Positions 4,854-44,615 of a stretch of 48,914 nt of DNA are shown here, in pieces. Made by a program: the position numbers and the translations under genes. Location: assembly GCA_021792335.1 (NCBI GenBank), contig JAJYUW010000004.1, positions 1-48,914 of the forward strand. Reading direction: 5' to 3'. The notes beneath the pieces are model-generated. The model searched no databases. It was not told the DNA's origin and was given only the letters and a program-made list of their open reading frames with translations. Source of the DNA: Pseudomonadota bacterium (GTDB lineage: Bacteria; Pseudomonadota; Gammaproteobacteria; Burkholderiales; Sulfuricellaceae). Within the stretch, counting starts at the first letter, position 1, and every line of letters begins with the position of its first letter.

Positions 4854-5141
4854 GCAGGCGGCTTCTTGTGCCTGGTATTTTTCAGACTTAATCCAGCTTT
4901 AGATTAAATCTCTTTCATGAAAAATGCCCTGGAACACATTAAAAAATATGACATAATTTAACAAAAATTTTAATGGGACTGCCGTGTCTGCAAATCCATG
5001 CCTGGATGGGCAGCATACGGCGTGGCGGAATCCGCGCATCGCAATAGTCGCAAGCGGCTGGAAAGTGGGAGAATGTTGAAATTTAACCAATCCATAACAG
5101 GGCCAGGCTGTGCAACAGTCGTCCGGGAGGAGCCGCTCCCC

Positions 5142-6851
5142 ATGATGGATGCGGCTGATCTGGTAATTGCCTATCTGGAGCAGATAGGCGTCGAGTATGT
5201 GTTCGGGGTGCCCGGAGGCGGCATCGAGCCGCTTTACAATGCGCTCGCGCGCAGCGCCCGGCGCGGCGGGCCGCGCCCGGTCGTAGCCCGCCACGAAACG
5301 GGGGCCGCTTTCATGGCCGATGGCTACGCGCGTGAAACCGGCAGGATAGGCGTGTGCTGCGCCACTTCCGGCCCGGGTTCCACCAATCTCATCACCGGCG
5401 TAGCCTGCGCGTATGAAAACGAAATCCCGCTGCTGGTCATCAGCGGGCAGCCATCGTTGCACTTGCTGGGCAGGGGGGCGATGCAAGAATCCGCCGGCAG
5501 CGGCACCGGCATCGACACGGTGGCCATGTTTCGCAGCTGCACGCGCTACAGCGCACTGGTGTCCCATCCCGATCAACTGGAAAGCCAGTTGGTCAGCGCA
5601 CTGTTGAGCGCGCACCGGCCGACGCCCGGCCCGGTCCACCTGAGCATCCCGCTGGATGTTCAGCGCAGCCCGATGGGGTATGCACCGGCCCATGACCTGG
5701 CCCGCCTGCTGCTGCCGCCCTCTCCCGTCGATGACGCGGCGGTGCAGGCGTTACGCGCGCAACTGGAACGGGCGCGCCGCGTGGTGATACTGATAGGCAG
5801 CGGCTGCAGTGAGGCGGTCGACGCCATTCTCGATCTGGCGGAAACAATCGGCGCGGTTTTCGTCGTCACGCCCGACGCCAAGGGCTTTGTCAGCCCCCAT
5901 CATCCTCTGTACCGCGGTGTGTTCGGGTTCGCCGGGCATCATTCCGCCGTCGCGGTGATGAACGACAATCATGTAGACCTGATCCTGGCAGCCGGTTCCT
6001 GTATGGGTGAATTTAACAGCAACGGTTGGTGCCAATCGCTGCTGAACAGCCGGCTGGTGCATATCGATTCCTGCGAGGCGCATTTGTCGCGTTCCCCCAT
6101 GGCGCGGCTGCATGTGCGCGGCCGCATACGCGCGGTATTCGAGCGGCTGCTGGACCTGATGTGCCGGGACGGTGTGAGAGCGCTTGCCGCTGCCGCAGCG
6201 CGGAAGTCTGCGGAAGTCCTGGTGGCCGATTCCGACCAACGGGTGCAGGACGCCGCGCTTATCAAGCCCCACTACCTGATGCGCGAACTCGGCCGGCGCT
6301 GCCCATCCGATACGCGTTTCCTGGCCGATACCGGCAGCAGCATCGCGTGGGCAATCCATCACCTGGATCTGCACGATTACCGCCCCAGCCCGGGGGGTTG
6401 GCTGCGGGTCACCATGAATTTCGCTCCCATGGGCTGGGCTATCGGCGGGGCGGTCGGCACCGCGCTGGCCAACCCTGATGCGCCGGTAGTCTGCATCACC
6501 GGCGACGGCAGCCTGCTCATGAACGGCCAGGAAATGACCGTGGCGCTGACCGAGAAGCTCACCGTGGTATTCGTGATACTCAACGACGCCGCACTGGGCA
6601 TGGTAAAGCACGGCCAGCGACTGGCCGGCGCGGAGCAGGTCGGAGTCGAGCTGCCGCCGGTGGATTTCAGGCTGCTGGCCGAATCCATGGGCATTCCGGG
6701 CCATGTGATCCGCACCGCCGGGGATCTGGATGGTCTCGACCTGGACGTGATCCTGCGCAATCCGGGGCCGACCGTGCTGGACGTGCGCATCGATCCAGAG
6801 GAAGTGCCGCCCATGGGGCTGCGGCTGAAGATACTGGGTACGGCGAAATAA
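5142..6851 (+). CDS. Thiamine-pyrophosphate-dependent enzyme, acetolactate-synthase-like large subunit
   Basis: YVFGVPGGGIEPLYNAL, VVARHETGAAFMADGYAR (catalytic Glu), TSGPGSTNLITGVACAYENEIPLLVISGQ, TPP motif GDGSLLMNGQEM...ILND. Start at 5142 preferred because of GGAGGAG upstream; ORF opens at 4998. Confidence 0.88.
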   Translation: MMDAADLVIAYLEQIGVEYVFGVPGGGIEPLYNALARSARRGGPRPVVARHETGAAFMADGYARETGRIGVCCATSGPGSTNLITGVACAYENEIPLLVISGQPSLHLLGRGAMQESAGSGTGIDTVAMFRSCTRYSALVSHPDQLESQLVSALLSAHRPTPGPVHLSIPLDVQRSPMGYAPAHDLARLLLPPSPVDDAAVQALRAQLERARRVVILIGSGCSEAVDAILDLAETIGAVFVVTPDAKGFVSPHHPLYRGVFGFAGHHSAVAVMNDNHVDLILAAGSCMGEFNSNGWCQSLLNSRLVHIDSCEAHLSRSPMARLHVRGRIRAVFERLLDLMCRDGVRALAAAAARKSAEVLVADSDQRVQDAALIKPHYLMRELGRRCPSDTRFLADTGSSIAWAIHHLDLHDYRPSPGGWLRVTMNFAPMGWAIGGAVGTALANPDAPVVCITGDGSLLMNGQEMTVALTEKLTVVFVILNDAALGMVKHGQRLAGAEQVGVELPPVDFRLLAESMGIPGHVIRTAGDLDGLDLDVILRNPGPTVLDVRIDPEEVPPMGLRLKILGTAK

Positions 6852-6879
6852 ACAAGGAATCTATCCGCACCCGCATCTT

Positions 6880-7053
6880 GTTCCCCTCTCCCGTCTCGCC
6901 AGAGGGAGCAGCCTTGCTGCCGCTCTCGGCGGGGACACTCCTTGCGGGTGCAGGGAGAGGGGTTAGGGGTGAGGGGTTGTGCAATGGAATACATATCTCG
7001 CGGTACGCACAGCCCCTCATCCCCAGCCCTTGTCCCGCCTGCGGGAGAAGGGG
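6880..7053. repeat. Left palindromic repeat block flanking the DUF559 gene
   Basis: GGGGTGAGGGGTTGTG ... GCACAGCCCCTCATCCCCAGCCC and CCCGCCTGCGGG hairpin; same architecture as the right block. Confidence 0.8.
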
Positions 7054-7064
7054 GTAGGCCAGGC

Positions 7065-7484
7065 ATGGAAAATTACACGCCGCATCACCCTGCCAAATTG
7101 CCAGAAGATATTCGGGCTTGGGCCAGAGAAATGCGTGGTCGTATGACTGATGCGGAGGCTTTGTTATGGATGCTTTTGCGCAATCGCCGTATCGCTGGCG
7201 CAAAATTCAGGCGACAGCATCCTGTGGGACGCTACATCCTCGACTATTATTGTGTTGAAAACAAGTTGGGCATTGAACTTGATGGGGGGCAGCATGGCAA
7301 AGCGGTTGATTACGATCAGAACCGGGACAACTGGTTGCGTACGCAAGGAATTCTGGTGCTACGTTTCTGGAATAACCAGATGTTGACGGGGACAGAAGCA
7401 GTTATGGAAGCGATTTATCAAGCTGTTGTTGCTGCTGTACCGGTAACCACCCCTCTCCCGCAGGCGGGAGAGAGGCAGGGGTGA
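7065..7484 (+). CDS. DUF559 domain protein (Vsr-like PD-(D/E)XK endonuclease superfamily)
   Basis: AREMRGRMTDAEALLWMLLRNRRIAGAKFRRQHPVGRYILDYYCVENKLGIELDGGQH...NRDNWLRTQGILVLRFWNNQML is the DUF559 signature; last residues are encoded by the flanking repeat. Confidence 0.92.
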   Translation: MENYTPHHPAKLPEDIRAWAREMRGRMTDAEALLWMLLRNRRIAGAKFRRQHPVGRYILDYYCVENKLGIELDGGQHGKAVDYDQNRDNWLRTQGILVLRFWNNQMLTGTEAVMEAIYQAVVAAVPVTTPLPQAGERQG

Positions 7485-7565
7485 GGGGCTGTGGATTATG
7501 AATCGCATTTTCAGGTATGCACAGCCCCTCATCCCCAGCCCTTCCCCCGCCTGCGGGGGAAGGGA
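7450..7565. repeat. Right palindromic repeat block flanking the DUF559 gene
   Basis: CCCCTCTCCCGCAGGCGGGAGAG...GGGGTGAGGGGCTGTG...GCACAGCCCCTCATCCCCAGCCCTTCCCCCGCCTGCGGGGGAAGGG. Confidence 0.8.
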
Positions 7566-7591
7566 GTATGCCAGCGGGAGGGGGGAAGCAA

Positions 7592-8422
7592 ATGACTGAT
7601 ATCAAAACTGAATCCATACACACCCGCATTTGGCAGGAGGAGCCAGAGCCGGACAACGCCTTCGCGGCGGCGTCCTGTCATTGCCACGGCTACGATGTCT
7701 ATGGCGACTTGCTGCCCCATGCGAGCTGGATCGAGTACCTGTTCCTGCTGTTTCGCGGCGAGGCGCCGTCAGCGGAGCAGGCACGGCTGCTGGAGGGGCT
7801 GGCGCTGGCGCTGGCGAATCCGGGGCCGCGCGATGCGGCGGTGCATGCCGCCATGTGCGGCGGCGTCGGCGGTTCCACCTCGGCATCCTGTTTGATGGCG
7901 GCGCTGGCGGTGGGGGCGGGCGCATCGGGCGGGGCGCGGGAAGTGCGTCTCGCCATGGAAGACTGGCTGGCGCGCGGCACCGATACGGCCCTGTGGCAAA
8001 CGGGTCTGGCGGCAACGCCGGCGGATAATCCGGCGGACGTCTGGCCCGCCCCTGGCCATGCGCCCGGTTTCGATCCCCACGGGGTGCGCTGTGCCGGGCC
8101 GGTGCGGCAAACCCTGGCGCACCTCGCCGGCCTGGGTTGCGGGCCGTGCCTGCCCTGGCTGCAAGCCCAGCGGCCGCTGCTGGAATCCGCCGCCGGGCTG
8201 CCGCTGGCGATGACCGGCGTGGCGGCGGCAGCCTTGCTCGACCTCGGCTTCACGCCGGCGCAGGGCGAAATGCTGCATCTGCTGCTGCGGCTGCCAGGCG
8301 CCGCGGTGCATGCCCTGGAGCAAAAGGATTACGGCCACAAGAAATTTCCGTTTTTCCGTGTCGAACTGGAAAACGACCCCGCCCCCGCCGGGGCCGGCTT
8401 GAACACGGAGGACAGGGCATGA
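7592..8422 (+). CDS. Citrate synthase/citryl-CoA lyase-family protein, paralogue 1
   Basis: Family-like segments YGDLLPHASWIEYLFLLFRGE, GGVGGSTSASCLMAALAVGAGASGGAREV, GFDPHGVRC, TGVAAAALLDLGFTPAQGEMLHLLLRLPGAAVHALEQ; no significance search possible. Confidence 0.7.
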   Translation: MTDIKTESIHTRIWQEEPEPDNAFAAASCHCHGYDVYGDLLPHASWIEYLFLLFRGEAPSAEQARLLEGLALALANPGPRDAAVHAAMCGGVGGSTSASCLMAALAVGAGASGGAREVRLAMEDWLARGTDTALWQTGLAATPADNPADVWPAPGHAPGFDPHGVRCAGPVRQTLAHLAGLGCGPCLPWLQAQRPLLESAAGLPLAMTGVAAAALLDLGFTPAQGEMLHLLLRLPGAAVHALEQKDYGHKKFPFFRVELENDPAPAGAGLNTEDRA

Positions 8423-9222
8423 AGGGGCCGCAATTGCTGGAAGAACAGACCGGGCGGCTTGCCACCCGCATGGGAGCGTGTTTCCCAGGCGAACGCGTCG
8501 TGTTTCGCGGCCAGGATTTATTTACCTCGCTTAAGGACCTCGACTGGCTGGAACTCTATCTGTTCGGCATCACCGGCCGTCGCTATACGCCGCAGCAGAT
8601 GCGCGTGCTGCACGTAATCTGGACACACAACAGTTATCCAGACGCGCGCATCTGGAACAACCGCGTGGCGGCATTGGCGGGCACGGCGCGCAGCACTGGC
8701 CCACTCGGCATTGCCGCTGCGCTGGCCATATCCGAGGCGACGATCTATGGCGGAGCTTCACAACGGCGTTGCAGTGAATTTCTGACCCGAGCCAAAAAAA
8801 TGGTGGACGAAGGGGCGGATCTGGAAGCATTGGTGCGCACTGAACTCAAGGAAAAGCGCGGCATCGGCGGTTACGGACGGCCGATTGTTCCAACCGATGA
8901 GCGCATCGTTCCGATCATGGCGATCGTGCGTGAACAGGGTCTGGAGAATGGGCCTCATCTCAAGCTTGCGTTCGAGGTGGAAAAAATTCTGCTTGCCGGG
9001 CGCTGGCGCTGGCACATGAATAGCGTCGGGCTCACGGCGGCACTATGTGCCGATTTCGGCATGTCGCCGCGCGAGTATAATTTTTTCTGCATTCCTGCCT
9101 TCCTCGCCGGCATGCCGCCGTGCTATCTGGATGCGGCGGAAAAACCGGAAGGCCAATTGTTTCCACTGCCTTGCCGGATGATGCATTACGAGGGCGTTCC
9201 CCGCCGCCAGTGGGGGCGGTAA
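8419..9222 (+). CDS. Citrate synthase/citryl-CoA lyase-family protein, paralogue 2
   Basis: Start overlaps the stop of the upstream gene (ATGA); ELYLFGITGRRYTPQQMRVLHVIWTHNSYPDARIWNNRVAALAGTARSTGPLGIAAALAISEATIYGGASQ resembles the citrate synthase large domain. Confidence 0.7.
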   Translation: MKGPQLLEEQTGRLATRMGACFPGERVVFRGQDLFTSLKDLDWLELYLFGITGRRYTPQQMRVLHVIWTHNSYPDARIWNNRVAALAGTARSTGPLGIAAALAISEATIYGGASQRRCSEFLTRAKKMVDEGADLEALVRTELKEKRGIGGYGRPIVPTDERIVPIMAIVREQGLENGPHLKLAFEVEKILLAGRWRWHMNSVGLTAALCADFGMSPREYNFFCIPAFLAGMPPCYLDAAEKPEGQLFPLPCRMMHYEGVPRRQWGR

Positions 9223-9245
9223 TGGGTAATGCCGGGGGTGTAGTC

Positions 9246-11303
9246 ATGAATAGAGCGATAATGCGGGCAGTGGTCGCGGCACTGGCAGTGGCATGGGCCG
9301 CCGGCGCTTGCGCCAGCCAGGAGAGCGAGGAAGAGGATCTGGCGCTGGCCTACGGCGACAAGTCCTTCGTTACCATCGCTAGCGGCGCCCGGCAGCCCGT
9401 CGCGCGGGCGCCGTCGGTGGCCACCGTGGTCACCGCGGAGGACATCGCAGCCATCGGCGCGGCCGACCTGGACGAAGTGCTGGAAACCGTGCCCGGACTG
9501 CATGTGTCGCGTTCAGTCGCCGCCTACAACCCGATCTACACCATCCGCGGCATCTCCACCCAGTACAATCCCCAGGTGCTGATGCTGGTGAACGGCATTC
9601 CGATCACCGGCGTGTTCGTCGGCAACCGATCCCAAATCTGGGGTGGCATGCCGGTGGAGAACATCGCGCGCATCGAGGTGATCCGCGGCCCCGGTTCCGC
9701 GCTCTATGGCGCGGACGCCTTTTCCGGGGTGATCAACATCATCACCAGGACCGCCGCCGACATCAAGGGCACCGAACTCGGCGTGCGCGCCGGCTCGTTC
9801 AACAGCCGCGACGCCTGGGTGCAGCATGGCGGCGCCTGGGGCGGGTTCGACGTTGCCGCCTATCTGCGGGTGGGTGCCACCGACGGCCAGCGCGAGATGA
9901 TCGGCCGGGATGCGGCGACCGCCCTGGGCACTTCCCTTGCGCCGGGACCGGTCAACCTCGGCCGCGACGCCATCGATGCCCGCCTCGACCTGGCGCGCGA
10001 AAAATGGCGCCTGCGCGCCGGCTACCAGCAGCGCGACAACGTGGGCAACGGCGCCGGGGTGGCTTCGGCGCTGGACCCCAAGGGCGGCAATTTCGGCGAG
10101 CGGGTGTCCGCCGACCTTACCTGGCAGGACGCGAACTTCGGCCGCGACCTGGACGTGACCGCCCAGGCCAGCTATCTAAACATCACCGAGCGTTCCGATT
10201 TGACGCTTTATCCGCCGGGCTCATTCGGCTTCCCGGACGGCGTGATCGGCAATCCTTACAAGTGGGAGCGCCACTTGCGCTTCAACCTGTCGGCTTTTTA
10301 TACCGGGTTCCAGAGCCACAAGCTGCGCTTCGGCGCCGGAACGCAGGACGACGACCTGTACCGTACACGGGAAACCAAGAATTTTTCCACGCCAGCTCCC
10401 GGGGTATTGTTTCCGCTGGGATCGGTGGTGGACGTGAGCGACAGCGCGCCTTTCCTGCGCCCGCACAGCCGCCGCGTGAACCATGTCTACGTGCAGGACG
10501 AATGGGCTTTGGCCCGGGACTGGTATTTGACCGCCGGCGTGCGCCACGATCAGTATTCCGATTTCGGCGGCACCACCAACCCGCGCCTTGCCCTGGTATG
10601 GGAAACGGCTTACAACCTCACCAGCAAGCTGCTCTACGGCCGCGCTTTCCGCCCGCCGTCATTTTCCGAGCTCTACAATATCAACAATCCGGTGGGGGTG
10701 GGCAACCCCAACCTGAAGCCGGAAACCAACGAATCCGTGGAACTGGCTTTCGCCTGGCAGCCGGCCAGCACCCTGCAGACCAGCCTGAACCTGTTCCGCT
10801 ACCGGATGAAGGATATCCTGCGTTTCGTGCAGAATCCGGATGCCACGATTACCGCGCAGAATGCCGGAGAGCAGACCGGCCAGGGCCTGGAAGTCGAGCT
10901 TGCCTGGGAAGCGAGCGCCAGCCTGCGGCTGTCGGGCAATTACGCGCAGCAGCGTTCGATCGATGTGGCAACGGACCGCGATGCGGGCAACGCCCCCCGG
11001 CACCACGTCTATGCCCGTGCGGACTGGCGCTTTATGCCGGCCTGGACATTGAACGCGCAGCTCAACTACGTCGCCGACCGCAAGCGCGAGCCCTCGGATA
11101 CCCGCCCCGCTATCGCCGATTACCACACCGTGGACCTCACGCTGCGCAACAAGAAGCGTAGCGGCGACTGGGATTTCGCCTTTACCGTGCGCAACCTGTT
11201 CAACGCCGACGCACGCGAGCCGTCGCCGGCGCCGGGCCTGATTCCCAACGACTTGCCGCTGGCCCCGCGCGAGTGGCGCTTCGAACTGCGCCACCAGCTT
11301 TGA
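9246..11303 (+). CDS. TonB-dependent outer-membrane receptor
   Basis: Signal peptide, plug APSVATVVTAEDIAAIGAADLDEVLETVPGLHV, VIRGPGSALYGADAFSGVINIITR, TonB C-terminal strand ending PREWRFELRHQL. Confidence 0.93.
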   Translation: MNRAIMRAVVAALAVAWAAGACASQESEEEDLALAYGDKSFVTIASGARQPVARAPSVATVVTAEDIAAIGAADLDEVLETVPGLHVSRSVAAYNPIYTIRGISTQYNPQVLMLVNGIPITGVFVGNRSQIWGGMPVENIARIEVIRGPGSALYGADAFSGVINIITRTAADIKGTELGVRAGSFNSRDAWVQHGGAWGGFDVAAYLRVGATDGQREMIGRDAATALGTSLAPGPVNLGRDAIDARLDLAREKWRLRAGYQQRDNVGNGAGVASALDPKGGNFGERVSADLTWQDANFGRDLDVTAQASYLNITERSDLTLYPPGSFGFPDGVIGNPYKWERHLRFNLSAFYTGFQSHKLRFGAGTQDDDLYRTRETKNFSTPAPGVLFPLGSVVDVSDSAPFLRPHSRRVNHVYVQDEWALARDWYLTAGVRHDQYSDFGGTTNPRLALVWETAYNLTSKLLYGRAFRPPSFSELYNINNPVGVGNPNLKPETNESVELAFAWQPASTLQTSLNLFRYRMKDILRFVQNPDATITAQNAGEQTGQGLEVELAWEASASLRLSGNYAQQRSIDVATDRDAGNAPRHHVYARADWRFMPAWTLNAQLNYVADRKREPSDTRPAIADYHTVDLTLRNKKRSGDWDFAFTVRNLFNADAREPSPAPGLIPNDLPLAPREWRFELRHQL

Positions 11304-11449: not shown

Positions 11450-11486
11450 AGCAGTTGCCGTTTTTAGGTTGATCGGTCACTGCCCG

Positions 11487-12467
11487 ATGTTTTCACCGAC
11501 CACGCCCGGTTACACCCGTCGTGCCGAATTCAGAGGCCGGCTGGCGGCAGCGCTGCTGAGTGTCGTGCTGCTTGTCGCCACGGCGCCGGCACGGGGAGCG
11601 GGGGAAGCTTCGCTGGCGGTGGTTTATCCCGATATCGGCGAGCCTTACCGGGAAATATTCGAGAAGATCATCGAGGGCATCGAAAACAAGGCCGGCACGC
11701 CGGTAGCCAATTATCCGGTGAGGGCCAACACGGATATCGGCGCGCTGAAATCCAGCCTGCGCCGCCAGAATGCCAAGGTGGTGATTGCCCTTGGCCGGCA
11801 GGGCATGAAGACGGCGGCGGCGCTGGATCACGGCATGGGGATGGTGGTGGGCGGCGTGTTGACGGTGCCGGAAAGCGAGGCGCGCGGGCTGCCGGTGATC
11901 AGCCTGTCGCCGGACCCCGCGCTGTTGTTTGCCCGCCTGAAGGCGCTGATGCCGGCGGCGAGGCGTGTATTTGTCGTCTACGATCCCGGCTTCAACGCCT
12001 GGCTGATGAAGCTGGCCAAAGAAGCCGCTCGCGCCCAGGGCATGGAACTGGTGGCGTATGAGGCCCAGGATCTGCGCAGCGCGCTGCGGTTCTATCAGGA
12101 AATTTTCTCCGCGGCTGACAGCCGCAGGGATGCCATATGGTTGCCGCAGGATCCCACGGTGGAGGAAAGATCCATTCTGCCCTTGGTGCTGCAGGAGTCG
12201 TGGAATCAAGGCATGGTCGTATTTTCCAGCAATTTAAGTCATGTCCAGCGCGGTGTGCTGTTCTCGCTTTATCCCGACAACGTGGCGCTGGGGAAAAGCC
12301 TGGCCGGTCTGGCGCTGGGCATATTGGCCTCCGGCGACAACGGGAAGCGGGGCATGATGCCGTTGCGCGACGTGCAGATCGCGGTCAACCTGCGCACCGC
12401 CAAGCACCTTGGTCTCAATCTGGGCCATCAGCAGCAGAGTTTCGACATGGTATTTCCGGAGCCTTGA
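11487..12467 (+). CDS. Periplasmic ABC-transporter substrate-binding-like protein
   Basis: Signal peptide; type-1 periplasmic-binding fold pattern VYPDIGEPYREIFEKIIEGIENKAG, LMPAARRVFVVYDPGFNAWLMKLAKEAARAQGMELVAYEAQD, IWLPQDPT. Confidence 0.75.
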   Translation: MFSPTTPGYTRRAEFRGRLAAALLSVVLLVATAPARGAGEASLAVVYPDIGEPYREIFEKIIEGIENKAGTPVANYPVRANTDIGALKSSLRRQNAKVVIALGRQGMKTAAALDHGMGMVVGGVLTVPESEARGLPVISLSPDPALLFARLKALMPAARRVFVVYDPGFNAWLMKLAKEAARAQGMELVAYEAQDLRSALRFYQEIFSAADSRRDAIWLPQDPTVEERSILPLVLQESWNQGMVVFSSNLSHVQRGVLFSLYPDNVALGKSLAGLALGILASGDNGKRGMMPLRDVQIAVNLRTAKHLGLNLGHQQQSFDMVFPEP

Positions 12468-12475
12468 GACACCCT

Positions 12476-16936
<4,461 letters not shown>

Positions 16937-17020
16937 TGACGGTCTTCCCGTCTGAATGCGAGGGGCTTCGCAGTGAAGTAATATTGCGGGTTGCGGAAGT
17001 ACTTAAGCTAAAAATGGCTT

Positions 17021-17171
17021 TTAACAGGCTGTTGAAATTCGCCCGGAATACCCTTCGATACGCGCTTCGCGCTACTCAGGGCGAACGGTAATGTATTGAT
17101 TCCGTTCGTGCCGAGTAGGCGGCTTTGCCGCCGTAGCGAAGCACAGTAAGCGTTTTTCAACAACCGGTTAA
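17021..17171. mobile_element. 151-bp MITE-like element, copy 1
   Basis: TTAACAGGCTGTTGAAA ... TTTTTCAACAACCGGTTAA termini; near-identical to 42082..42232. Confidence 0.75.
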
Positions 17172-21113: not shown

Positions 21114-21207
21114 CATGTTGAATTTGCATGATTATCCTGTAGGGCCGAATTCATTCGGCCAGATGTGCGAATGAATTCGCACCTACAAAAAACATACGGT
21201 CGTTTCA
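21114..21207. repeat. Double-hairpin repeat, inverted copy of 28274..28364
   Basis: GGCCGAATTCATTCGGCC and GTGCGAATGAATTCGCAC hairpins, flanked by CATGTTGAATTTGC and CCTACAAAAAACATACGGTCGTTT. Confidence 0.85.
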
Positions 21208-21220
21208 AGCCGGCTGACGG

Positions 21221-22852
21221 CTAGACTTTGAAACGGCCAATAGTGTTCTGCATGGAGGCGGCCAACTGTTCCAGATGCTGGGCGGCATTCGCGGTTTCCT
21301 GCACTGCGGCACTGTTTTCCTCGCTCATCTGGGCGATTTTTTCCACGTTCTTGGCGATGTCATTGCTGGCCACGCTTTGCTCTTTTAGCGAGTTGGAGAT
21401 ATCGCCTACGACTTGAACCACCCGCGCCGCCTCGGTTTTGATCTGGGTGATCGAGCCTGCCGCTTCATTCGCCAGCGTCACCCCGTTGCTTACCCGTGCG
21501 ACGCCGCCTTCCATGCTGGCAAAGGCGCTGTGGGTGCCGCCCTGGATTTTTTCTATCATGCCGGCAATTTCCTGGGTGGACTTGCTTGTCCGTTCCGCCA
21601 GCTTGCGCACCTCATCGGCGACCACCGCGAAGCCCCGGCCTTGCTCGCCCGCGCGGGCCGCTTCGATCGCTGCGTTGAGGGCGAGCAGATTGGTCTGGTC
21701 CGCGATTTCCTTGATGACGTTGACGATGGCGGAAATTTCTCCCGATTGCTGTTCCAGCGCTGCGATGATTTGAGAGGATTCCTTGACGGAATCCGAAATC
21801 TGCGACATTTCCGCTGCCGCATTCTGGATCACGCCAGCCCCTTGTTCCGACAATTCGCCGGAGCGCCTGGAGAGGGTTCTTGCTTCATGGGCGTTTTCGG
21901 AAACCTGCTCGATGCTGACCGTCATTTCTTCGACTGCCGCAGCCATGGAAGAGGCGGCTTCGGACTGCTGCCGCGAGCTTTCCGCTACCTGGCTGGAGGC
22001 GGCGGCGAGCTCCGTGGCGGTGCTGGATACCTGGTCGGCGTCGGCAAGAATTCCGGCGATCATTTCCTTCAGCCTGGTCTGCATTTCCCTCATCGCAGCC
22101 AGCATGCTTCCGCTGTCGTTCGGCTTGGTGACCACTGTCATGGCAAGGTTGCCGGCGGCAATGTTGCGGGCAATTTCTGCCGCATAGGCCGGTTCGCCGC
22201 CGAGGTCGCGGGTGAGCGAGCGAATGATCAGGAAACCGGCGATCGCCACCGCGATCACCAGCGCGGAAGCAGCGATGGTAATGAGCAGGAAGGTACGTTG
22301 ATAAAGCGTTTGCGCTTCGGCGGCGGCATCATCAATCTGTTCGACCTGGTACGCGCTGAGCTCGTTCAGGGCTTGCATGTATCTGGCAAGCACCGGCCGG
22401 ATCTCATTGTTCAGGATGTCCTTGGCCTCGTTTTTATTTCCGGCTCGATTGGCTCCCAGCGCTTTTTGCACTAACAGGCGATAGGGTTCCCGTTGTTCCT
22501 TGACGGCTGTTAATAGTTGTTTGTCTTTTTCCGCGGCGGCGGTTTTTTCCAGCTTGCTTATGGTTTCGACTACTATTTTGCGTGACTTGGCCATGGAATC
22601 CATTTCCCTGGAAATGTCCTCCTCCTTGTCCAGCAGCAGGATGTCGCGCGCGGAAAGCATGTTCTGGTTGACGTTGTCGGTGACGGTTTTTGCCAGCAGG
22701 ATTTTGGGCACTCTGTCGGAGGCCAGCTTGTCTATGCTGTTCTTCAGCTCGTCGATTTTCCATAATGCAATGCCGGAGCCGACGATGAGGCCGAAACTCA
22801 GAATGGAAAAAATTGCGCCGAGGCGCATGGCAACGGTCATGTTCTTGAACAT
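21221..22852 (-). CDS. Methyl-accepting chemotaxis protein
   Basis: 4HB_MCP sensor and signalling hairpin [48 protein letters not shown]. Confidence 0.96.
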
Positions 22853-28249: not shown

Positions 28250-28273
28250 TCCGCTAGTAGTCAGTCAACTTAA

Positions 28274-28364
28274 AACGGCCGCATGTTTTTTGTAGGTGCG
28301 AATTCATTCGCACAATTGGCCGAATGAATTCGGCCCTACAAGGCAATCACGCAAATTCAACATG
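28274..28364. repeat. Double-hairpin repeat, inverted copy of 21114..21207
   Basis: CATGTTTTTTGTAGGTGCGAATTCATTCGCACAATTGGCCGAATGAATTCGGCCCTACAAGGCAATCACGCAAATTCAACATG. Confidence 0.85.
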
Positions 28365-42070: not shown

Positions 42071-42081
42071 GGCTCAAGGCT

Positions 42082-42232
42082 TTAACAGGCTGTTGAAATT
42101 CGCCTGGAATGCCCTTCGATACGCGCTTCGCGCTACTCAGGGCGAACGGTAATGTATTGATTCCGTTCGTGCTGAGTAGGCGGCTTTGCCGCCGTATCGA
42201 AGCGCAATGAGCCGTTTTCAACGGCCTGTTAA
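42082..42232. mobile_element. 151-bp MITE-like element, copy 2
   Basis: TTAACAGGCTGTTGAAA ... TTTTCAACGGCCTGTTAA; same orientation and length as 17021..17171. Confidence 0.8.
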
Positions 42233-42324
42233 TGAATTAATTTTTAAATTATTACGCCAACATTTTTTCTGCTATTATTATTTTTTGTATAGTGTCAGTA
42301 TATTACAAAAGAGGATATGCATAT

Positions 42325-43233
42325 ATGAATATCTTGAAAATCGTTTCGGCGGCGGCTTTACTCATCCTGGGATCGGGGCATGCCTACGCTGACGGCGATC
42401 TGCCTACAAAATTCCTGAACCAGGGCACCATCGGCAATACGCGCCATAACCTGACCCAGCGTCAGACTGCCGGCGGCGGCCCCAGCGGGCAGAACATGGA
42501 CCCGTACCGCAACGACTACGAAGAGGTCTGTGTCTACTGCCACACGCCTCATGGTTCAGCCACGTCTGTGAGTTTGCCGCTGTGGAACCGCACCATGAAG
42601 GCGACCTCGTATACGACATACAGCCAGCTCGGCACCACCACCCTGACGCAGCCGGTTTCGCAGCCGGGGATCAACTCCTTGTCCTGTCTCTCCTGCCACG
42701 ATGGCCAGACGGCGCTCGACTCTATCATCAACATGCCCGGTTCGGGACGGTATCAGGCCAGCCAGGAAACATCGCAGGACCTCGTATTCCTCAATGCATG
42801 GAACAATACACGGGGTCCGGACGCCACGGTGCACGGGGGATTGAAGATGGGCGAGTGCCTGTATTGCCACACGCCCAACGGATTTGTTGGTGCTGGCGCT
42901 CCCGATTTCACTATTGCTGCGATTGGTACCGACCTGCGCAACGATCACCCGGTGGGTATCGTCTATCCGCCAATCAACGGCCCGGGTACCGATTTCAACA
43001 CGCCGATAGGGGTAAAAGGCACTACCCGCTATTTCGACTTGAATGGTAACAGCGCAATGGATAGCGGCGATGTACGCTTATATGACACGGGAGGCTTGGT
43101 GAAAGTGGAGTGCGCTTCCTGCCACGATCCGCATGGAGTGCCTACGGCTGGCCCCGGTTCCACGTTCAGGCCGACGTTTTTGCGTGTGACCAATTCCGGC
43201 AGTGCGCTTTGCCTGACTTGCCATGTCAAGTAA
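42325..43233 (+). CDS. Secreted pentaheme c-type cytochrome, paralogue 1
   Basis: Signal peptide MNILKIVSAAALLILGSGHAYA; five CxxCH motifs CVYCH, CLSCH, CLYCH, CASCH, CLTCH. Confidence 0.93.
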   Translation: MNILKIVSAAALLILGSGHAYADGDLPTKFLNQGTIGNTRHNLTQRQTAGGGPSGQNMDPYRNDYEEVCVYCHTPHGSATSVSLPLWNRTMKATSYTTYSQLGTTTLTQPVSQPGINSLSCLSCHDGQTALDSIINMPGSGRYQASQETSQDLVFLNAWNNTRGPDATVHGGLKMGECLYCHTPNGFVGAGAPDFTIAAIGTDLRNDHPVGIVYPPINGPGTDFNTPIGVKGTTRYFDLNGNSAMDSGDVRLYDTGGLVKVECASCHDPHGVPTAGPGSTFRPTFLRVTNSGSALCLTCHVK

Positions 43234-43706: not shown

Positions 43707-44615
43707 ATGAATATATTGAAAATCATTTCGGCGGCGGCTGTGCTCATCCTGGGTTCTGGTCACGCCTACGCTGCCGGCGATTTGCCTACAAAATTCTCGA
43801 ACCAGGGCAGCATCAGCAATACGCGCCATAACATGACGCAGCGCCAGGAATCCGGCGGCGGTCCCAGCGGGGCGATCATGGACCCGTACCGCAATGACTA
43901 CGAAGATGTCTGTATCTACTGCCACACGCCGAATGACGTAGTCACGGCGGTGGGTTTGCCGCTGTGGAACCGCACCATGAAGGTGACCACATATACCACT
44001 TACAACCAGCTCGGCACCGCCAGCCTGACGCAGCCGGTTTCGCAGCCGGGATTGAATTCCTTGTTGTGCCTGTCATGCCACGACGGTCAGACGGCGGTCG
44101 ACTCTATCATCAGCATGCCCGGTTCGGGGCGGTATCAGGTCAGCCAGGAAACATCACAGGACAATGCATTCCTCGATACATGGAACAATACGCGGGGTCC
44201 GGACGCTACGGTGCATGGGGGATTGAAGATGGGCGAGTGCCTGGTTTGCCACTCCCCTGGCACGTTCGTTGGCGCTAGCGCCCCCGATTTCAGGATTGCC
44301 ATGATAGGCACCGACCTGCGCAACGATCACCCGGTGGGGGTCGCTTTTCCGCAGGTCAATGGCCCGGGCACAAACTTCAACACGCCGTGGGGGGTTGAAG
44401 GCACGACCCGCTATTTCGACTCGAATGGCAACGGCACAATGGATAGCGGCGATGTGCGCTTGTATGACACGGGGGGCTCCGCGAAAGTGGAGTGCGGTTC
44501 CTGCCACGATCCGCATGGAGTGCCTTCGGCTGGCCCCGGTTCTACGTTCAAACCGACGTTTTTGCGTGTAGCCAATTTCGGTAGCGCGCTATGCCTTACT
44601 TGCCATATCAAGTAA
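43707..44615 (+). CDS. Secreted pentaheme c-type cytochrome, paralogue 2
   Basis: Signal peptide MNILKIISAAAVLILGSGHAYA; CIYCH, CLSCH, CLVCH, CGSCH, CLTCH; high identity to 42325..43233. Confidence 0.93.
   Translation: MNILKIISAAAVLILGSGHAYAAGDLPTKFSNQGSISNTRHNMTQRQESGGGPSGAIMDPYRNDYEDVCIYCHTPNDVVTAVGLPLWNRTMKVTTYTTYNQLGTASLTQPVSQPGLNSLLCLSCHDGQTAVDSIISMPGSGRYQVSQETSQDNAFLDTWNNTRGPDATVHGGLKMGECLVCHSPGTFVGASAPDFRIAMIGTDLRNDHPVGVAFPQVNGPGTNFNTPWGVEGTTRYFDSNGNGTMDSGDVRLYDTGGSAKVECGSCHDPHGVPSAGPGSTFKPTFLRVANFGSALCLTCHIK

Follow-up and report, generated by a model that had tools for sequence, protein, structure and literature searches.

The 48,914-nucleotide stretch of contig JAJYUW010000004.1 analyzed here (Sulfuricellaceae; "the window" denotes the whole stretch) carries a thiamine pyrophosphate (TPP) enzyme gene, two genes for citrate-synthase-fold proteins that lack catalytic residues, termed CSa and CSb, and genes for a TonB-dependent receptor, a PF04392 periplasmic binding protein and a histidine kinase. 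Judged from sequence, the probability that this unit makes and senses its own small molecule is put at about 0.5. The link between biosynthesis and sensing is the strongest clue to function: in 50 of 52 loci the synthase genes are linked to a candidate cognate sensor kinase, and these kinases are of two unrelated types. No publication on a TPP-CSa-CSb operon was found among open papers.

Open reading frames were clustered in 80 loci, and gene content was counted on the 52 with long flanks. The TPP enzyme, CSa, CSb, the TonB receptor, the PF04392 binding protein and the histidine kinase constitute the conserved set. At the 52 loci, the TPP enzyme was present in 52, the histidine kinase in 50, the TonB receptor in 49, the PF04392 binding protein in 39 and a short-chain dehydrogenase/reductase (SDR) in 21. 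In part of the loci the SDR gene lies between those for the TPP enzyme and CSa, and a sulfotransferase is found in some. At one locus (L083 10817-13699) a sulfotransferase and an adenosine 5'-phosphosulfate kinase, together with a 305-aa protein, are located directly downstream of CSb, which suggests that the product may be sulfated in some hosts. An inner-membrane permease is not among the conserved neighbors of the 80 loci; a role alongside the kinase is therefore more probable for the binding protein than one in transport. An earlier note on this DNA had described the TPP gene and the two adjacent citrate-synthase-like genes, whose positions were borne out by open reading frame tables and family scans, and a TonB receptor gene 24 nt past the second paralogue, which was found to begin at 9246, 23-24 nt past CSb. 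The ATGA overlap of the CSa stop and CSb start that it reported is real (8419-8422) and recurs with the same spacing in 53 related loci, as expected if the two genes are translationally coupled. The binding protein and sensor kinase beside the TonB receptor are operon parts missing from that note.

The arrangement is altered in diverged lineages. The order in L106-L109 is TonB receptor, CSa, CSb, TPP enzyme, binding protein, histidine kinase, with the genes abutting or overlapping. In L111-L113 the genes for the TPP enzyme, CSa and CSb stand beside a Ser/Thr kinase-AAA-GAF-histidine kinase of 1,730-1,770 residues and a LuxR-type response regulator, and the TonB receptor and binding protein are not beside the core; L110 possesses a related kinase. 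Across the lineages the TPP-CSa-CSb core is thus accompanied by a sensor kinase, which belongs to one of two unrelated kinds. Loci of the Geobacter type carry their TPP gene on the opposite strand, though still adjacent, and its product is only approximately 36% identical. It can also be observed that in L110 an AMP-binding, acyl-CoA-synthetase-like gene follows CSb (8057-9571), consistent with supply of an acyl-coenzyme A (acyl-CoA) partner.

A single scan covering 84,980 species genomes returned 201 confirmed CSb relatives, and 79 loci were kept. The hosts are Gallionella, Sideroxydans, Sulfuricella, Dechloromonas, Azonexus, Massilia, Rugamonas, Collimonas, Noviherbaspirillum, Roseateles, Rhodoferax, Methylomonas, Geobacter, Pelotalea and a Fibrobacteres metagenome-assembled genome (MAG), among others. 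When 399 Pseudomonadota genomes were searched, strong CSa and CSb matches occurred in the same 10 of 10 genomes, in adjacent genes; the few remaining matches were weak, at the level of ordinary citryl-CoA lyase. CSa and CSb thus proved to be a near-obligate pair tied to a TPP enzyme, in keeping with the partnership suggested in the earlier note. In the tree CSa forms one clade (support 99/98) and CSb another (100/99), and the deep lineages L106/L109, L110/L112 and the rest are resolved alike in the two clades. CSa and CSb are accordingly read as ancient partners and not as a recent duplication. Pairwise distances of CSa, CSb, the TPP enzyme, the TonB receptor, the binding protein and the kinase correlate with r of 0.28-0.77; the CSa-CSb correlation is 0.72, and 0 of 200 shuffles were as high. 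In a Rhodocyclales MAG (L054 7352-11817), tandem amplification has produced the order CSa-CSb-CSa-CSb-CSb downstream of the TPP enzyme and SDR. Among annotated plasmid-borne relatives, one distant citryl-CoA lyase was found and nothing else. If the make-and-sense reading holds, a widespread signal or metabolite system would be added to Gallionella, Geobacter, Dechloromonas, Massilia, Rugamonas, Roseateles, Methylomonas and relatives.

Structural models place both proteins on the citryl-CoA lyase fold. Confident AlphaFold models, built from family alignments, gave a predicted local distance difference test (pLDDT) score of 84.8 and a predicted template modeling score (pTM) of 0.82 for CSa, and 88.8 and 0.84 for CSb. 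The top Foldseek match among solved structures was in both cases citryl-CoA lyase 6hxp, with template modeling (TM) scores of 0.66 for CSa and 0.79 for CSb; the agreement concerns the fold of the large domain. Likeness to citryl-CoA lyase and citrate synthase (PRK06224; 6hxp; PF00285) extends to a length of approximately 265-275 aa, to GYGxP...DxR in CSb and to the C-terminal patterns AH..E in CSa and Y.G...R in CSb. Unlike those enzymes, CSa and CSb are two obligately paired paralogues with the catalytic His/His/Asp replaced, and they score far under curated cut-offs: against NCBIfam citryl-CoA lyase, CSa obtained 47 bits against a cut-off of 261 (E-value 1.3e-12) and CSb 39 bits against 212 (6.5e-10), while CSb remained below the PF00285 cut-off (18.6 against 27). 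A natural CSa-CSb fusion (L028) was considered as a heterodimer template and set aside, its CSa end reading as frameshifted and its CSb containing undetermined residues in a draft genome.

The citrate synthase reaction relies on Asp and the first His to enolize acetyl-CoA and on the second His to activate the carbonyl of oxaloacetate. The corresponding positions in 78 CSa and 83 CSb proteins were set by alignment to GltA of the same genome, the sole reference used, which displays HGGAN, GFGHRVYKNFDPR and NVD (GFGHR...DPR region). The loss of all three residues that had been noted by eye in the second paralogue was confirmed in CSb at family level: the first His is Tyr in 82/83, the second is Arg in 83/83, and the Asp position holds A, G, V or S, never Asp. 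For the first paralogue the same account stood in part. Replacement of the first His (mostly S, L or Y; His in 8/78) and of the Asp (mostly S or T, never Asp) applies to CSa family-wide, but the His of GFDPH, described as kept, is not invariant: 57/78 proteins have it, and the remainder have Y or N. The first His persists in CSa of the diverged lineage L110-L113, and GFGHH in that of L109, one member of L106-L109; from this, CSa seems to have lost its catalytic residues gradually, and CSb before the lineages split. In two citryl-CoA-lyase-like outgroup proteins outside the system (L012 and L114) the first His and Asp are missing as well (FVGS/ILGA; NATS/NVSA), and residue loss alone is therefore no mark unique to CSa and CSb. 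Several proteins annotated as "citryl-CoA lyase" under PRK06224 may thus be non-lyases.

Such losses bring forward the alternative that survives best, namely that CSa and CSb are non-catalytic and form a ligand-sensing or scaffolding heteromer regulating the TPP enzyme, like the regulatory subunits of acetolactate synthase. All three catalytic residues are gone in CSb and most in CSa, and the pair is absent from two genomes of the window's genus in which the TPP enzyme remains. This alternative is nevertheless considered unlikely. CSb retains the substrate Arg of the DPR motif, as DER, in 83/83, the Arg that replaces the second His is invariant, and R30, D33, S72, D75, R77, W79, N80, N81, R82, R154, D160, E161, R162 and D212 are (nearly) invariant polar residues, which argue for a working binding site. 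CSa has an invariant Arg (78/78) at the place of the carboxylate-binding Arg of citrate synthase. Moreover, most citrate-synthase-fold proteins are enzymes.

The class of the TPP enzyme indicates what the pair might receive. The protein read from the 5142 start contains three Pfam TPP domains (E-values 1.7e-39, 1.5e-31 and 2.3e-26), the activating Glu motif RHETGAAFMADGYAR and a GDG...N motif, and the catalytic motifs are conserved across the family. Its best solved relatives are BbmA (311 bits) and CsmA (294 bits), followed by acetolactate synthase (231 bits); for the TPP enzymes of Geobacter, L106 and L112 type, BbmA and CsmA are likewise the best solved relatives. Against the acetolactate synthase equivalogs the window enzyme lies below the cut-offs, with 295 bits against 509 and 293 against 538. 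All operon TPP enzymes split from acetolactate synthases in the tree together with BbmA and CsmA, with support of 96/97, and CsmA and the operon enzymes have a common C-terminal PPMG.R.K.L motif. The earlier suggestion of a TPP carboligase or decarboxylase acting with the pair was thus upheld as to the TPP partner and refined as to its type, the nearest solved relatives being alpha-hydroxy-beta-keto acid synthases.

The chemistry of that class is known from natural product pathways. According to PMC12395478, CsmA and an enzyme spelled BpmA there, taken to be the BbmA of structure records, are homologues of CybE, the products of which are alpha-hydroxy-beta-keto acids. Two 2-oxo acids are coupled by CybE, after which CybF links the resulting compound to coumaroyl-CoA. 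In carbazole pathways, according to PMC7466098, CqsB3 makes the acid and CqsB1, which resembles ketoacyl-acyl carrier protein synthase III (KASIII), condenses it with an acyl-acyl carrier protein (acyl-ACP) or acyl-CoA with loss of CO2. That the acid is handed to an acyl-CoA- or ACP-using partner in these pathways (CybF; CqsB1) is counted in favor of the make-and-sense reading. The operon enzymes resemble the thiamine-dependent synthases BbmA, CsmA and CybE in being grouped apart from acetolactate synthases, and differ from them in being partnered by a citrate-synthase-fold pair and sensor genes, not by CybF or a KASIII-like enzyme. Neither a receptor nor a kinase is mentioned in the excerpts on the furanolide (cyanobacterin) enzymes CybC/E/F or the carbazole pair CqsB3/B1.

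With the operon architecture, residue loss, fold and TPP class shown, a process of four steps is proposed. During the first step, the TPP enzyme would join two 2-oxo acids in the manner of an alpha-hydroxy-beta-keto acid synthase; carboligation of this kind is regarded as somewhat better than an even bet. During the second step, a CSa/CSb heteromer on the citryl-CoA lyase fold would convert the unstable TPP product, most likely by condensation with an acyl-CoA, the nucleophile being supplied by CO2 loss from the beta-keto acid. With a nucleophile obtained by decarboxylation, the Asp/His pair of citrate synthase would no longer be needed, while the sites binding the CoA thioester and the carboxylate still would be, which would explain why Asp and His were lost but the fold was kept. 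Decarboxylative acyl-CoA condensation by CSa and CSb is put forward tentatively, the odds being against this specific chemistry. During the third step, an SDR (some loci) or a sulfotransferase (few) would decorate the product. During the fourth step, external product would cross the outer membrane by the TonB receptor and bind the PF04392 protein, and the hybrid kinase would report its presence; the output of the window kinase would pass to the GGDEF/EAL cyclic di-GMP domains, after the manner of LuxP-LuxQ or TorT-TorS. CqsA/CqsS and LuxS/LuxPQ pair a synthase, as a neighbor or as a counterpart, with a periplasmic-binding or membrane sensor kinase, and receiver-only genomes occur. The present gene set is like these systems in combining biosynthetic genes with a sensor kinase, and unlike them in its different enzymes and added TonB receptor. 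If the proposal is correct, citrate-synthase folds have been converted to an obligate heteromer with different chemistry. The TPP class, whose chemistry is known, together with its dedicated pair and a receptor that could act as detector of the product, would also open a directly testable route from sequence to compound.

The next alternative is a metallophore system, in which the TPP enzyme, CSa and CSb would synthesize a small chelator of hydroxy-carboxylate type. The TonB receptor would recover its metal complex, and the binding protein and kinase would report on the supply of that complex. The frequency of the TonB receptor fits such a role, as do its nearest solved relatives, the colicin I receptor and BtuB, which include siderophore and B12 receptors, and many hosts oxidize or reduce iron, e.g., Gallionella, Sideroxydans and Geobacter. 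An operon of siderophore type would possess a TonB receptor as found here, but no inner-membrane ATP-binding cassette (ABC) or major facilitator superfamily importer or exporter is among the conserved neighbors. PF04392 is furthermore atypical as a metallophore binding protein, L110-L113 lack the TonB receptor and binding protein beside the core, and Massilia, Rugamonas, Roseateles and Methylomonas are hosts as well. A metallophore is therefore held to be improbable. Still less favored is catabolic sensing, in which the receptor and binding protein would detect and import an external compound, and the TPP enzyme and the pair would cleave it in a retro-aldol or citryl-CoA-lyase-like reaction. 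The citryl-CoA lyase fold is C-C cleaving, many TPP enzymes cleave C-C bonds too, and a binding protein is present; against this, the catalytic His/His/Asp is lost in CSa and CSb, permease, CoA ligase and downstream catabolic enzymes are not conserved at the loci, and the TPP enzyme groups with synthases. An ordinary acetolactate synthase with a citryl-CoA lyase is ruled out by the sub-cut-off scores, the residue loss and the TPP tree, and a housekeeping citrate synthase replacement by two strong full-length PF00285 matches elsewhere in the genome. If the make-and-sense reading is true, "acetolactate synthase" and "citryl-CoA lyase" annotations in these genomes need renaming.

Several points weigh against a unit that makes and senses its own product. 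A TonB receptor would be expected in metallophore or vitamin uptake sooner than with an autoinducer, and no conserved exporter was seen in the neighborhoods. The kinase and TonB neighbor counts are raw counts at the loci themselves. In the TPP tree BbmA and CsmA sit on long branches, and their chemistry is drawn from citing papers. The loss of His and Asp may have other meanings, given L012 and L114. Finally, two genomes of the window's genus (G001 and G008) contain the TonB receptor, the binding protein, the histidine kinase and a sulfotransferase beside the TPP enzyme (63% identity), with no CSb match anywhere in either genome; the pair is therefore not required for what those receptors sense. 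A third genome (G057) has the TonB receptor, binding protein and histidine kinase, while CSb and a matching TPP enzyme were not found at the threshold used, and looks like a receiver-only genome. Judged by the gene content of these three genomes, CSa and CSb seem to represent one route among several by which the TPP product is completed, and the receptor part can apparently stand on its own.

Features of the window belonging to the operon or inserted into it
Feature	Coordinates	Strand	Basis
TPP enzyme	5142..6851	+	Pfam TPP N/M/C domains; open reading frame 4998-6851
DUF559 gene, inserted, with flanking repeats; outside the system	6942..7484	+	NCBIfam PRK09767 3.6e-34
CSa, citrate-synthase/citryl-CoA-lyase-fold protein without catalytic Asp and first His	7592..8422	+	NCBIfam, AlphaFold, Foldseek, residue counts
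CSb, second citrate-synthase-fold protein of the pair; Tyr and Arg in place of the first and second His, Asp lost	8419..9222	+	NCBIfam, AlphaFold, Foldseek, residue counts
TonB-dependent outer-membrane receptor	9246..11303	+	Pfam barrel 2.9e-44, plug 1.8e-24
PF04392 (ABC_sub_bind) periplasmic binding protein, with no accompanying permease or ATPase	11469..12467	+	PF04392 4.7e-10
Membrane hybrid histidine kinase: HAMP, HisKA, HATPase, 3 receiver domains, Hpt, GGDEF, EAL	12476..16936	+	Pfam scan

The junction between the TPP enzyme and CSa genes is broken in the window by the DUF559 insertion, which among the 80 loci occurs elsewhere only in the close relative L026; in L034 the two genes overlap by 4 nt. 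A 98-nt direct repeat flanks the DUF559 gene (6965-7062 and 7477-7574). The true start of CSa is probably 7592 and not 7517, because 7477-7574 is one copy of this repeat. At 6845-6876, 32 nt resemble (75%) the start of CSa at 7598-7629, which looks as though the original 5' end of CSa had been duplicated or displaced by the insertion. Outside the operon, a 152-nt repeat with 92% identity is located just downstream of the kinase gene (17020-17171) and again 25 kb away (42081-42232), and an inverted pair of 111-nt repeats occupies 21114-21224 and 28254-28364. The neighboring genes at 42292-43233 and 43707-44615 display doubled CXXCH motifs, as in multihaem c-type cytochromes, and share a 300-nt stretch of 85% identity; a tandem duplication is probable.

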